Assembly (NCBI RefSeq): GCF_014873755.1
Contig: NZ_JADBEG010000001.1
Coordinates: forward strand, 7,724,501 to 7,788,500
DNA length: 64,000 bases
Origin: Amycolatopsis lexingtonensis
GTDB lineage: Bacteria; Actinomycetota; Actinomycetes; Mycobacteriales; Pseudonocardiaceae
Reading direction: 5' to 3'
The position numbers were made by a program, and so were the translations under genes. Below, in pieces: positions 44,890-52,633 of the stretch; within the stretch, counting starts at the first letter, position 1, and the number at the start of each line of letters is the position of its first letter. A model generated the notes under the pieces. That model ran no database searches. It saw nothing but the letters and a program-made list of their open reading frames with translations, and was not told the origin of the DNA.

Positions 44890-44927
44890 TTGCGGCTCCC
44901 CCGAGGGGAGCTGCCAGGCTGAGGGCA
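44890..44927 (+). promoter_or_regulatory. MerR-type promoter with 19-bp spacer and dyad, leaderless start
   Basis: TTGCGG (44890-44895) and CAGGCT (44915-44920) are separated by 19 bp, and the spacer holds the dyad GCTCCCC-N3-GGGGAGC (44895-44911). The A of the ATG at 44927 lies 7 bases past the -10 box, so the mRNA is probably leaderless. This is the layout of MerR-family autoregulated promoters. Confidence 0.75.
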
Positions 44928-45772
44928 TGCGGTATTCGATCGGCGAGCTGGCGAGGCGGACGGGCCTGACGATCAAGGCCGTCCGGTTCTACTCGGATCG
45001 CGGTCTCGTGCCGCCGTCCGGACGCAACACCGCAGGTCAGCGCTGGTACGACGACGCCGCCCTCGCCCGGCTCGGCCTCGTCCGCACGCTGCGCGAGCTG
45101 GGCCTCGACCTCGCCACGATCCGCCGGATCGCCGACGGCGAAGTCGAGGTCGCCGACATCGCGGCCCGGCACGCGGCGGCCCTGGAAGCGGAAATCCGCC
45201 TGCTGCGCCTGCGCCAAGCGGTGCTGACGGCGATCGCCGGCCGCGGCTCGACGACGGAGGAGACGAAACTCGTGCACGAACTGGCCCGGCTGTCCGAAGT
45301 GGAACGCCGCCACCTGATCGGCGAGTTCCTGGCCGAAGCGCTGGGCGACCGTCCCGAACTGGCCGGGATCGCCCGGACGCTGACCCCGGAACTGCCGGAC
45401 GACCCGAGCCCCGAGCAGCTCGACGCCTGGATCGCGCTCGCCGAGCTGACGCAGGACGCGGAGTTCCGCGCCGTCCTGCGCCGGCTCGTCGACCGGCACG
45501 AAGGTGGCCTGCGCCGAGACCTGGCCGCCGAGGTCCGCGCCGCCGTCACGCCGGCGCTCGACGCGGGGATCGCCCCGGACACCCCGGAAGCGGCGTCGAT
45601 CGTCGACGGCCTCGGCCGCGACCCCCGCGAGCTGCGGGACTGGCTCGAGGCCGTCAACGACCCGCGCCGTGAGCGCTACGTTGAGCTGCTCGCGGTGATC
45701 AACGGCTGGGCGCGACCGGAAAGCCTGACCCCGGCCCTCGACTGGCTGACGGCGGCGAGCTCTCGGCGTTGA
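44927..45772 (+). CDS. MerR-family transcriptional regulator
   Basis: This encodes 281 residues. The N-terminal MerR helix-turn-helix and wing (YSIGELARRTGLTIKAVRFY) and a dimerisation coiled coil (EVADIAARHAAALEAEIRLL) are followed by a helical C-terminal region of about 150 residues, without a cysteine metal site and unlike the GyrI effector domain. It probably senses a small molecule or is a TipA/Mta-like sensor. It overlaps the end of the convergent ThrRS-like gene by 74 bases. Confidence 0.88.
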   Translation: MRYSIGELARRTGLTIKAVRFYSDRGLVPPSGRNTAGQRWYDDAALARLGLVRTLRELGLDLATIRRIADGEVEVADIAARHAAALEAEIRLLRLRQAVLTAIAGRGSTTEETKLVHELARLSEVERRHLIGEFLAEALGDRPELAGIARTLTPELPDDPSPEQLDAWIALAELTQDAEFRAVLRRLVDRHEGGLRRDLAAEVRAAVTPALDAGIAPDTPEAASIVDGLGRDPRELRDWLEAVNDPRRERYVELLAVINGWARPESLTPALDWLTAASSRR

Positions 45773-46925
45773 GCCACGCGAGCGCGTCCTCGACTGGTTG
45801 CGCCTCGAGCCGGCTGCCGTCACGCAGCCGCAGGGAAAGCCGTCCCGCGGCGGCCTCCTCCGGTCCGAGCACGGCCTGGAACGGCACCAGCCGCCCGTCC
45901 CGGATCCGGGCGCCGAGGCTGCCCTCGGCCGCGATCTCGGCGCGCAGGTCGCCGCAGCGATCGAGGACTTCGCGCGCGTACGGCACTTCGGCGTCGGAAA
46001 GCGGGAGCAGCCGCAGCTGCACCGGCGCGAGCCAGGCCGGGAACGCGCCGCCGTGCACCTCGATCAACTGCGCCACCGCGCGTTCGACGCTGCCGATGAT
46101 GCTCCGGTGCACCATGACCGGCCGGTGTTTCGCCGCGTCCGCGCCGACGTACTCGAGGCCGAACCGCGCGGGCTGGTGGAAGTCGACCTGGACGGTGGAC
46201 AGGGTCGATTCGCGGCCCGCGCCGTCGGCGATCTGAACGTCGATCTTGGGCCCGTAGAAAGCAGCTTCGTCCTCGACGGCGTCGTAGGCGAGCCCGCACT
46301 GGTCGAGCACGGAACGCAGGATTTCGGAGGCACGGTCCCAATCTCCGGCCGCGTACTTTTCGCCGTCGCCGGGCAGCGAAAGGCGGTAGCGCGCCGGGCT
46401 GATGCCGAGCGCGTCGTAGGCCTCGCGGATCAGTTCCAGCGCCGCGACCGCCTCGGCTTCGACCTGGTCGAGCGCGCAGAAGATGTGCGCGTCGTTGAGC
46501 TGGATCGCACGCACCCGGCCCAGTCCGCCGAGGACGCCGGACAGTTCACTGCGGTACATCCCGCCGAGTTCGGCGATCCGCAGCGGCAGTTCGCGGTAGC
46601 TGCGGCCGCGTGACCGGTAGATCAGCGCGTGATGCGGGCACAGGCTCGGCCGCAGCACGAACTGCTCGCCGCCGACGTCCATGGGCGGGTACATGTCGTC
46701 GCGGTAGTGCGCCCAATGCCCGGAAATCTCGTACAGCTCGCGTTTGCCGAGAACGGGTGAATGGACGTGCTGGTAGCCCGCGCGCCGTTCGAGGTCGCGG
46801 ACGTATTCCTCCAGGCTGTGCCGGACGACGGCGCCGTCGGGCAGCCAATAGGGCAGGCCCGCGCCGATCAGCGGGTCGGAACCGAACAGGCCGAGTTCCC
46901 GGCCGAGCTTGCGGTGGTCGTGCAT
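45699..46925 (-). CDS. Compact threonyl-tRNA synthetase-like protein lacking TGS and editing domains
   Basis: This encodes 408 residues, against about 640-690 for housekeeping ThrRS. It begins directly at the class II catalytic core (motif 1 near the start). Motif 2 contains the zinc-ligand Cys in LRPSLCPHHALIY, the second zinc ligand His is in LNDAHIFC, and the third His is in PVMVHRSIIGS with motif 3. A C-terminal anticodon-binding domain follows (APVQLRLLPLSDAEVPYA). It looks able to activate threonine and charge tRNA-Thr but not to edit serine. Such second ThrRSs can give resistance to ThrRS inhibitors (borrelidin, obafluorin) or act under Thr starvation. It is preceded by a Thr-rich leader peptide and hairpin. 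Confidence 0.87.
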   Translation of the reverse strand: MHDHRKLGRELGLFGSDPLIGAGLPYWLPDGAVVRHSLEEYVRDLERRAGYQHVHSPVLGKRELYEISGHWAHYRDDMYPPMDVGGEQFVLRPSLCPHHALIYRSRGRSYRELPLRIAELGGMYRSELSGVLGGLGRVRAIQLNDAHIFCALDQVEAEAVAALELIREAYDALGISPARYRLSLPGDGEKYAAGDWDRASEILRSVLDQCGLAYDAVEDEAAFYGPKIDVQIADGAGRESTLSTVQVDFHQPARFGLEYVGADAAKHRPVMVHRSIIGSVERAVAQLIEVHGGAFPAWLAPVQLRLLPLSDAEVPYAREVLDRCGDLRAEIAAEGSLGARIRDGRLVPFQAVLGPEEAAAGRLSLRLRDGSRLEAQPVEDALAWLNAESSPPSASRGPGSGFPVAPSR

Positions 46926-46969
46926 GGTGGACTCCTCGGAAAGGCGAGGCGGCGCACCACAAGACGAAG

Positions 46970-46989
46970 CCCGGGGCGACCGCCCCGGG
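46970..46989 (-). terminator. Attenuator hairpin upstream of the ThrRS-like gene
   Basis: The stem 46970-46977 with 46982-46989 (8 bp, GC-only, tetraloop GACC in + orientation) lies 14 bases beyond the leader-peptide stop. On the minus strand it is followed by CTTCGTCTTGT, a weak T-rich tail typical of high-GC terminators. Confidence 0.65.
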
Positions 46990-47003
46990 TTGGAATGCGT
47001 GGT

Positions 47004-47051
47004 TCAGCGCGCCGGGACACTCTCCGGCGTCGTCGTCAATGCGCGCTTCAT
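47004..47051 (-). CDS. Threonine leader peptide MKRALTTTPESVPAR
   Basis: A 15-codon open frame (ATG 47051, TGA 47004-47006) carries three consecutive ACG threonine codons at 47028-47036. The last one overlaps the 5' arm of a perfect 6-bp stem (47024-47029 with 47010-47015). A TACCGT -10-like box 7 bases upstream of the ATG suggests a leaderless transcript. Together with the terminator hairpin before the ThrRS-like gene, this is the design of ribosome-mediated attenuation sensing Thr-tRNA. Confidence 0.68.
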   Translation of the reverse strand: MKRALTTTPESVPAR

Positions 47052-47099
47052 GGGATCGACGGTAGCAGCGCGCGCCACCCCTTATTCCGCGATCGACAC

Positions 47100-47564
47100 T
47101 CAGGCCAGAAACAGCTCCAGCTGCTCGACGACGAACGCGTGGTCCTCGGCCTGCGGCAGCCCCGAAACGCCCACCGTCCCGACCGGGCCGACGCCGCGCA
47201 CCAGCACCGGGAACACCCCACCGTGGGCGGCGTACTCGTCCGGGTCCAAATGGCTGTCCGCCTCGAACGAGCCGCCCTTGGCGCGGAACTGGGTGCCGAC
47301 CAGGAAGGAGCTGTGGCCGTAGCGGTCCACCACCCGGCTCTTGCGGTCGATCCAGGCGTCGTTGTCGGCCGACGTGCCGGGCAGCGCCGCGTGGAAGAGG
47401 CGCTGGCCGTTGCGGCGGACGGAGATCGTCACCGGCAGTCCGCGCTCGCGTGCGGCCGCGAGCAGCTGCTGGCCGAGCGCGAGCGCGGTCTCGTTGTCGA
47501 ACTTCGTGAACTGGAGGCGTTCCTCCTGCTCGGCGAGCTGGGCGAGGGCGTCGGCGTCGGTCAT
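47100..47564 (-). CDS. UPF0303/HbpS-like (GlcG-type) protein
   Basis: This encodes 154 residues with a heme-degrading-domain (HbpS/GlcG/UPF0303) fold: LGQQLLAAARERGLPVTISV at the start, the conserved NDAWIDRKSRVVDRYGHSS and a C-terminal GVSGLPQAEDHAFVV. HbpS relatives bind heme or act as redox sensors; UPF0303 members are otherwise uncharacterised. A palindrome lies just upstream of its start. Confidence 0.8.
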   Translation of the reverse strand: MTDADALAQLAEQEERLQFTKFDNETALALGQQLLAAARERGLPVTISVRRNGQRLFHAALPGTSADNDAWIDRKSRVVDRYGHSSFLVGTQFRAKGGSFEADSHLDPDEYAAHGGVFPVLVRGVGPVGTVGVSGLPQAEDHAFVVEQLELFLA

Positions 47565-52490: not shown

Positions 52491-52578
52491 GGTGGCGTGT
52501 CCGAGCGGCCGAAGGAGCACGACTCGAAATCGTGTGACGGCTAATCCCCGTCCGTGGGTTCAAATCCCACCGCCACCG
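52491..52578 (+). tRNA. tRNA-Ser(CGA)
   Basis: An 88-base class II tRNA. The acceptor stem GGTGGCG pairs with CGCCACC, with discriminator G at 52578. The anticodon loop is CTCGAAA (anticodon CGA, reading UCG), a long variable arm follows, and the T loop is GTTCAAATC. The 3' CCA is not encoded. Confidence 0.97.
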
Positions 52579-52633
52579 CTCTCACCCGGCCCCCCGGTCA
52601 GCCCAGCTGGCCGGGGGTCCGTGGGTTTCGGGC

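Follow-up and report, generated by a model that had tools for sequence, protein, structure and literature searches.

How is a spare threonyl-tRNA synthetase (ThrRS) controlled when a short threonine-rich frame lies directly ahead of its gene? Genes for ThrRS are known to be under autogenous control, as is E. coli thrS, whose operator has tRNA-Thr-like arms to which ThrRS binds, or under T-box control, as is thrZ of B. subtilis. The 64,000-nt stretch of Amycolatopsis lexingtonensis DNA analysed here (the window) carries a compact ThrRS gene behind such a frame, an arrangement that an earlier note had read as ribosome-mediated attenuation. We compared this leader with those of related genes across the actinobacteria, examined the RNA helices it can form and weighed the resulting model against its rivals. 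All features of the leader and of thrS lie on the minus strand.

The compact ThrRS gene and its threonine leader

The synthetase (408 aa; 45699–46925) consists of the class II core and anticodon domains only. It scores 407 bits against the NCBIfam thrS cut-off of 383.65 and, when aligned to the ThrRS of S. aureus (1nyq), shows C, H and H at the zinc-ligand positions. A second, full-length ThrRS with the SAD editing domain is encoded elsewhere in the same genome. The 3′ end of compact thrS overlaps a MerR-family regulator gene (44927–45772, plus strand) tail to tail by 74 nt, and the sole tRNA gene found in the window, for tRNA-Ser(CGA), lies at 52491–52579 (plus strand).

The 15-codon frame with three consecutive Thr codons described in the earlier note is present upstream of this gene at 47051–47004. 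This leader uORF, MKRALTTTPESVPAR (ATG AAG CGC GCA TTG ACG ACG ACG CCG GAG AGT GTC CCG GCG CGC TGA), starts with its ATG at 47051 and ends with TGA at 47004; its three putative sensing codons, ACG ACG ACG, occupy 47036–47028. The GC hairpin that had been noted before the synthetase gene, here hairpin A, was likewise found, at 46989–46970, 44 nt ahead of the thrS start codon at 46925, which is preceded by the Shine-Dalgarno (SD) sequence GAGGAG (46937–46932). Positions 46970–47051 span the uORF and this hairpin; the −10 box (47064–47059) and an SD hairpin (46960–46927) lie outside them.

The −10 box, TACCGT within TGCTACCGT, lies 7 nt upstream of the uORF ATG. Four short frames (≤30 codons) with TANNNT 6–7 nt before ATG or GTG occur in the window, and the thrS leader is the only one of them with TTT. 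Of 182 related loci, 175 have a TANNNT box that ends 6–7 nt upstream of the start codon; of the remaining seven, five (TTTPRSVPAR leaders) carry TGCTACCGT at the same position, one (L081) is without it and one (L043) is without the frame. Among 163 unique leaders the box is found at 6–7 nt in 162, as against 2 matches over all other distances between 0 and 30 nt, a result that is partly circular because the uORF start was picked among in-frame start codons by its nearness to such a box. Spacings of 5–9 were allowed in this choice and still only 6 and 7 occur; a single start-codon candidate exists in 27 of the 163. A TGC ahead of the −10 box is conserved (55 rows). No −35 hexamer was found upstream of the leaders by scanning the window and the 55 rows; instead, the stretch about 30 nt before the −10 box is weakly enriched in A (0.6 at one column, 55 rows). 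Since the −10 box ends 6–7 nt before the start codon, the uORF is probably translated leaderless, and this spacing would put the first transcribed nucleotide on the uORF start codon or beside it. The leader may also be reached by read-through, as a same-strand HbpS-like gene (heme-degrading domain; 47564–47100) ends 35 nt ahead of the −10 box.

We collected 182 compact ThrRS loci, 80 from named genomes (the best 80 of 446 relatives) and 102 from a family survey (102 of 390 genomes with a match at E ≤ 1e-100), two sets that overlap in species. The named hosts include Amycolatopsis, Saccharopolyspora, Streptomyces, Streptosporangium, Microbispora, Kineosporia, Nocardia and Nonomuraea. A Thr-rich frame lies upstream of 181 of the 182. 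The exception, L043 from Streptomyces inhibens, has only 155 nt upstream before the contig begins; these (L043:1–155) contain the hairpin and the SD region and no Thr frame, and perhaps reflect rearrangement or wrong assembly of the contig end. Of 396 Actinomycetota genomes sampled across the phylum, 12 encode a compact ThrRS among the matches at E ≤ 1e-100, counted by our own reading of identity and open frame and with two matches set aside (G783, truncated at a contig edge, and G535, a full-length ThrRS judging by its upstream frame). All 12 have a Thr frame with TANNNT 6–7 nt before its start, and the frames persist even at 51–57% identity, e.g. MAGLRSTTTTTGLPPAVCRVR and MQHLRALTTTTGAVPEV. 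The alignment of upstream regions of compact ThrRS genes proposed in the earlier note thus yields a Thr-rich uORF in 181/182 loci and in 11/11 further loci added by the phylum sample. Of the resulting 192 leaders, 171 are unique, and these contain a run of at least three Thr codons in 167 cases and of at least two in 170.

Searching the 396 genomes with a covariance model of the leader (R1) placed 9 of the 10 best matches just upstream of a compact ThrRS, one of these nine, from A. lexingtonensis itself, being a training row of the model. Nine of the 12 phylum-sample loci were also recovered in this way, and G594, G636 and G775 were found only by reading the upstream DNA. The leaders L223, L225 and L226, which the model missed, have longer or different Thr runs of up to five Thr codons, so that the leader family is wider than R1. 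Among 41 genomes with a match at E ≤ 0.01, nine (L186–L194) have one upstream of a compact ThrRS; at the loci L195–L222, likewise taken from model matches, tblastn found a ThrRS in none. The A. lexingtonensis genome gave 29 matches at E ≤ 10, one of them at 2e-29 and the next, at 0.014, covering the hairpin part only. Among the matches inspected in this genome and in the 396, none before other genes was convincing, no Thr-Thr uORF was seen upstream of the housekeeping ThrRS, and no NCBIfam model of the leader peptide was found. The comparison across loci indicates that the leader before compact thrS is not due to chance.

Mutually exclusive helices from the uORF to the SD region

The fold of the window leader alone is not unusual (z = −1.30), and the evidence for structure is comparative. 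We drew the helices from the consensus of an alignment (A1) of 56 of 68 sequences kept after thinning at 80% identity, the 12 with long linkers or inserts being left out. The consensus favours these helices over slid controls, and the covariation controls lean in favour, since relatedness makes the sequences non-independent and the same data served to draw the structures. With regions numbered 1–6 from the 5′ side, the mutually exclusive helices 1:2, 2:3 and 3:4 can all be drawn.

Helix 1:2 has two parts. P1 (47047–47042 with 47011–47006), which encloses the Thr codons, is paired in 90.5% of cells, with changes on both sides in four of six pairs; in L155 the peptide MKRA...PAR is changed to MQHA...PAC and the stem is kept. 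P2, CCGG with CCGG (47027–47024 with 47015–47012), is 96.8% paired with zero double changes. The pause-type stem of the earlier note is present beside the Thr codons, P2 beginning right after the last of them. Helix 2:3 joins GUCCCGG of the uORF tail to CCGGGGC of the hairpin A 5′ arm (47018–47012 with 46988–46982) and is the candidate antiterminator, which the earlier note had been unable to draw convincingly. It is 97.9% paired and has 10 double-change cells where shuffles give 1.0; both-side changes occur in two of its pairs, a number that is not beyond shuffles (reached by 75 of 500). In the distant group this helix reads CUCCGG with CCGGAG, and L176 and L177 change a G-C pair to A-U. Hairpin A (3:4), terminator-like and with the tail CUUCGUCUUG, is paired to 95.7% in its upper and 78.1% in its lower part.

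Downstream, the SD sequence is enclosed in hairpin Y:Z (5:6; 46960–46927), in which GUGG (46960–46957) pairs with CCAC (46930–46927) and CCUCG (46949–46945) with CGAGG (46938–46934), 88.2% and 72.9% paired. A further helix, X:Y (3:5), pairs CGGGGCGG with CCGCCUCG (46987–46980 with 46952–46945) and is mutually exclusive with both hairpin A and the SD hairpin. It is paired to 89.8% in register and to 47–58% in slid controls, and shows 41 double-change cells against 13.8 in shuffles; six pairs are changed on both sides, a number reached by 136 of 500 shuffles and hence not beyond them. Alignment columns 123 and 170, which pair in X:Y, hold A-U in 30 rows and G-C in 17 while the SD-side column 193 is mostly A, which suggests that Y follows X rather than the SD sequence. 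Over 163 unique loci, own X:Y duplexes average −21.5 kcal/mol as against −18.6 kcal/mol for swapped ones, with a median share of swaps as good of 0.2; this share is below 5% at only 46 loci, since X is common to most of the loci. In a comparison of 18 chosen, mostly divergent loci with partners whose X differs, 13 had their own duplex in the best 5%, the others being L176, L179, L192, L193 and L226. Within the alignment, helices 2:3, 3:4, 5:6 and X:Y covary. X:Y may be an anti-sequestor of the ON state, the reading that we prefer, or a loop contact.

Folding simulations were performed with a ribosome placed at different positions on the uORF. When the RNA stops short of the 3′ arm of hairpin A, 2:3 has a mean probability over 56 sequences of 0.96 if the ribosome sits on the first Thr codon, 0.74 if it sits on the third, 0.00 if it has reached the stop codon and 0.12 if there is no ribosome (1.00, 0.75, 0.00 and 0.04 for the window sequence). 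In equilibrium folding of the full-length RNA, hairpin A has a mean probability of 0.96–0.99 in every ribosome state and SD accessibility is static at 0.30–0.33 (54 rows). Since hairpin A always wins at full length and SD accessibility does not move, any switching, and the ON state with it, has to arise kinetically. Even when the 3′ arm of hairpin A was blocked, the expected number of X:Y pairs averaged only 1.5. Shuffled uORF tails form a mean of 7.3 pairs in 2:3-type pairing, as against 10.0 for the real ones. At most 1 of 20 shuffled tails reaches the real value in only 27 of the 56 A1 rows and 6 of 18 further loci, and in the window 5 of 20 do. As shuffled tails often pair equally well, folding favours 2:3 only modestly, and its better support is covariation.

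Sequence comparison shows the uORF, its codon choice and the helices; we infer the following order of events, response to starvation and role of 3:5. With enough charged tRNA, the ribosome would reach the uORF stop codon and cover the uORF tail (region 2), hairpin A would form, and transcription would be stopped or hindered; in any read-through RNA, strand Y would hold the SD sequence (5:6). A ribosome stalled on the ACG codons would disrupt helix 1:2, and the freed region 2 would pair with the emerging 5′ arm of hairpin A (2:3), delaying the terminator. Y may then take over the same arm (3:5), so that hairpin A is kept open and the SD sequence freed together. The output may thus be control of transcription plus translation.

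Whether hairpin A terminates transcription decides between this order and a purely translational attenuator, in which hairpin A is no terminator and translation of the uORF only sets whether Y holds the SD sequence. A terminator scan of 46850–47150 flagged the hairpin on the minus strand with the tail CTTCGTCTTG (one found, 0.2 expected from shuffles); the tail has the 5 T in 8 that the scan rule asks for, which speaks against a purely translational device, as do the high constancy of the upper part of hairpin A and the runs of U6 (L040, L081, L138) and U5 (L131, L137) that follow it in some leaders. In most members, the U-tract is weak or absent; a run of at least four U follows hairpin A in only 7 of 171 leaders, which makes intrinsic termination doubtful in most of them. 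Droste et al., in the part of their account available, note one hairpin without a U-rich sequence in S. lividans, and the SD hairpin and X:Y, the parts that a translational device would need, are conserved. We regard control of translation alone as unlikely without being far-fetched.

Opposite codon choice in leader and gene

Thr codon choice in the leader is opposite to that of the gene in the loci compared: ACG in the leader, ACC and ACU in thrS. The 171 unique leaders contain 545 Thr codons, of which 487 are ACG, 40 ACC, 14 ACT and 4 ACA. The 80 named compact thrS genes contain 884 ACC and 37 ACT, with ACG and ACA both at 0. Counting all 131 compact loci with gene DNA (116 unique, fewer than the loci with a leader; L248 only to an internal stop), 108 of the 116 genes are without any ACG or ACA, the totals being ACC 1082, ACT 46, ACG 8 and ACA 4 (12 of 1140 for ACG and ACA). 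In 210 predicted flanking genes, ACG makes up 34% and ACA 3.5% of Thr codons (together about 38%), and ACG or ACA occurs in 17 of 17 full-length ThrRS cores taken from the phylum-sample matches, most of them belonging to other genomes, where the two codons make up 121 of 306 for Thr. Retrieval of the 80 named compact ThrRS genes cannot have selected their Thr codons, as the retrieval patterns contain no Thr. Expression-level codon bias is an unlikely cause of ACC-only usage, since for other amino acids these genes stay close to the flanking ones: of the amino acids compared, Thr is the outlier with a total variation distance of 0.378, and Ser comes next with 0.12.

The frame is also poor in Thr. 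The window enzyme has 2 Thr residues in 408 aa, both encoded by ACC, which is the extreme of Amycolatopsis, where 28 unique genes have 2–5. Thr content is 2.5% in compact ThrRS, 4.6% in full-length ThrRS cores and 6.2% in flanking genes, so that extreme Thr depletion holds only partly as a general trait of compact ThrRS. Codons ACC and ACU are read by tRNA-Thr(GGU), and ACG by the CGU and perhaps the UGU isoacceptor; the A. lexingtonensis genome, with 51 tRNA matches, has one each of Thr(UGU), Thr(CGU) and Thr(GGU). Given the Thr-poor frame and ACC/ACU codons read by tRNA-Thr(GGU), translation of thrS should remain possible while the sensed tRNA is uncharged. Selective charging of isoacceptors is described as the reason for regulatory codon choice (PMC1183508, as far as its text was available), and PMC4209129, judging by its accessible part, deals with biosynthetic pathways whose content of the cognate amino acid is biased. 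Among the literature matches listed, with most subscription journals outside the scope, the codon split was not found described.

A peptide acting by itself, as an arrest peptide or a trans-acting leader peptide, would account for the PESVPAR tail conserved in much of the main group. The tail codons CCG GTC CCG GCG CGC TGA are, however, invariant in 143 of 143 TTTPxxVPAR-type leaders at their synonymous positions too, sense codons that thrS uses at only 0.39–0.57, and distant leaders carry a changed peptide (MRLAQHTTTPDPLRR) and keep the RNA pairs with other tails. Invariant synonymous sites together with changed peptides in distant leaders point to constraint on RNA and Thr codons, and we set selection on PESVPAR aside as the main cause; action of the peptide itself is highly improbable. 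General translational coupling or re-initiation with no sensing of Thr would fit the finding, in the part of PMC4833913 consulted, that actinobacterial leader genes are common and many are without an abundance of regulatory codons. The near-universal run of two or more Thr codons, the opposite codon choice of leader and gene, and the position of the uORF stop 78 nt before thrS and behind a hairpin all argue against coupling, to which we assign slightly less weight still. Autoregulation by ThrRS binding its own leader, or a T-box, has the precedents named at the outset and the least probability of all, since neither explains the Thr-codon frame and no Rfam family matched at the gathering threshold in the 64 kb except a tRNA.

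The compared sequences are very probably best read as ribosome-mediated attenuation, in which the leader would sense how far the ACG-reading Thr tRNA is charged and so control a spare ThrRS that has no editing domain. Attenuation of the second ThrRS, as proposed in the earlier note, is supported by the conserved uORF and by the covarying helices 1:2, 2:3 and 3:4, the regulation itself being predicted. Beyond that note, the comparison adds a probably leaderless uORF, the SD hairpin, the helix joining it to the terminator and the codon split. More tentatively, at somewhat short of an even chance, we propose that (i) the arm is handed from 2:3 to 3:5, so that one stall controls both termination and translation start, and (ii) sensor and output are split by isoacceptor, the leader reading ACG and the gene being purged of ACG and ACA, which would allow its synthesis during shortage of the charged tRNA.

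Related attenuators and implications

A peptide-based attenuator of a duplicate ThrRS, which the earlier note had called a different solution to the same problem, is not unreported; thrL (MKRVRPFLETTPGFVPAR) upstream of thrS is already listed for S. lividans TK24 (SLIV_19412/19410; PMC8079986, here and below from the part of the paper available). There, too, a Thr leader peptide that ends in TTPxxVPAR and is reported as leaderless stands before thrS with one hairpin after it, the hairpin is without a U-tract and termination is called ‘not clear’. Our comparison was made by the printed peptide alone, which fits the TTPxxVPAR ending. The available account consists of a table row and a short paragraph; unlike the present analysis, it includes neither an antiterminator nor an SD hairpin, and X:Y, the codon split and a comparison across the phylum are likewise absent from it. 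Among the literature matches listed, with most subscription journals outside the scope, no further paper describes this thrS leader.

Other systems share single elements. As far as the accessible text of PMC1262725 goes, the trpS and leuS attenuators of actinobacteria (Seliverstov et al. 2005) likewise place a leader peptide with cognate codons, an antiterminator and a terminator before a synthetase gene; SD sequestration belongs there to ileS T-boxes, unlike in the thrS leader, and the authors report that they saw no conserved RNA structures upstream of threonine operons. The LEU element of leuA described in the same text also combines a leader peptide with an alternative structure involving the SD sequence, but its regulatory codons pair with the SD sequence, whereas the thrS leader as drawn uses separate strands X, Y and Z. 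The word thrS is absent from the main text, as available, of PMC1262725, PMC4833913 and PMC2965389. The thr operon attenuator of E. coli resembles the thrS leader in its Thr codons within a leader peptide; it differs in having eight ACC codons and controlling biosynthesis, as opposed to ACG and a synthetase (PMC1183508, available part). In B. subtilis, vmlR combines transcription and translation attenuation at one gene and responds to antibiotics, not to a tRNA (PMC9226507, available part). By its sequence, the thrS leader, already on record for one species, belongs to a known kind of attenuator and is real and conserved; its double-output architecture would be unusual.

If the model is true, the leader would be an actinobacteria-wide case in which the codons of gene and attenuator are divided between isoacceptors, as the theory of selective charging would want. 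It would also make a testable claim that the spare, editing-less ThrRS is a standby enzyme for failures of Thr-tRNA charging, and would offer a Thr-tRNA sensor for use in laboratory strains of Streptomyces and Amycolatopsis. More generally, the thrS leader may show how attenuators work in high-GC bacteria with terminators that have no U-tracts.
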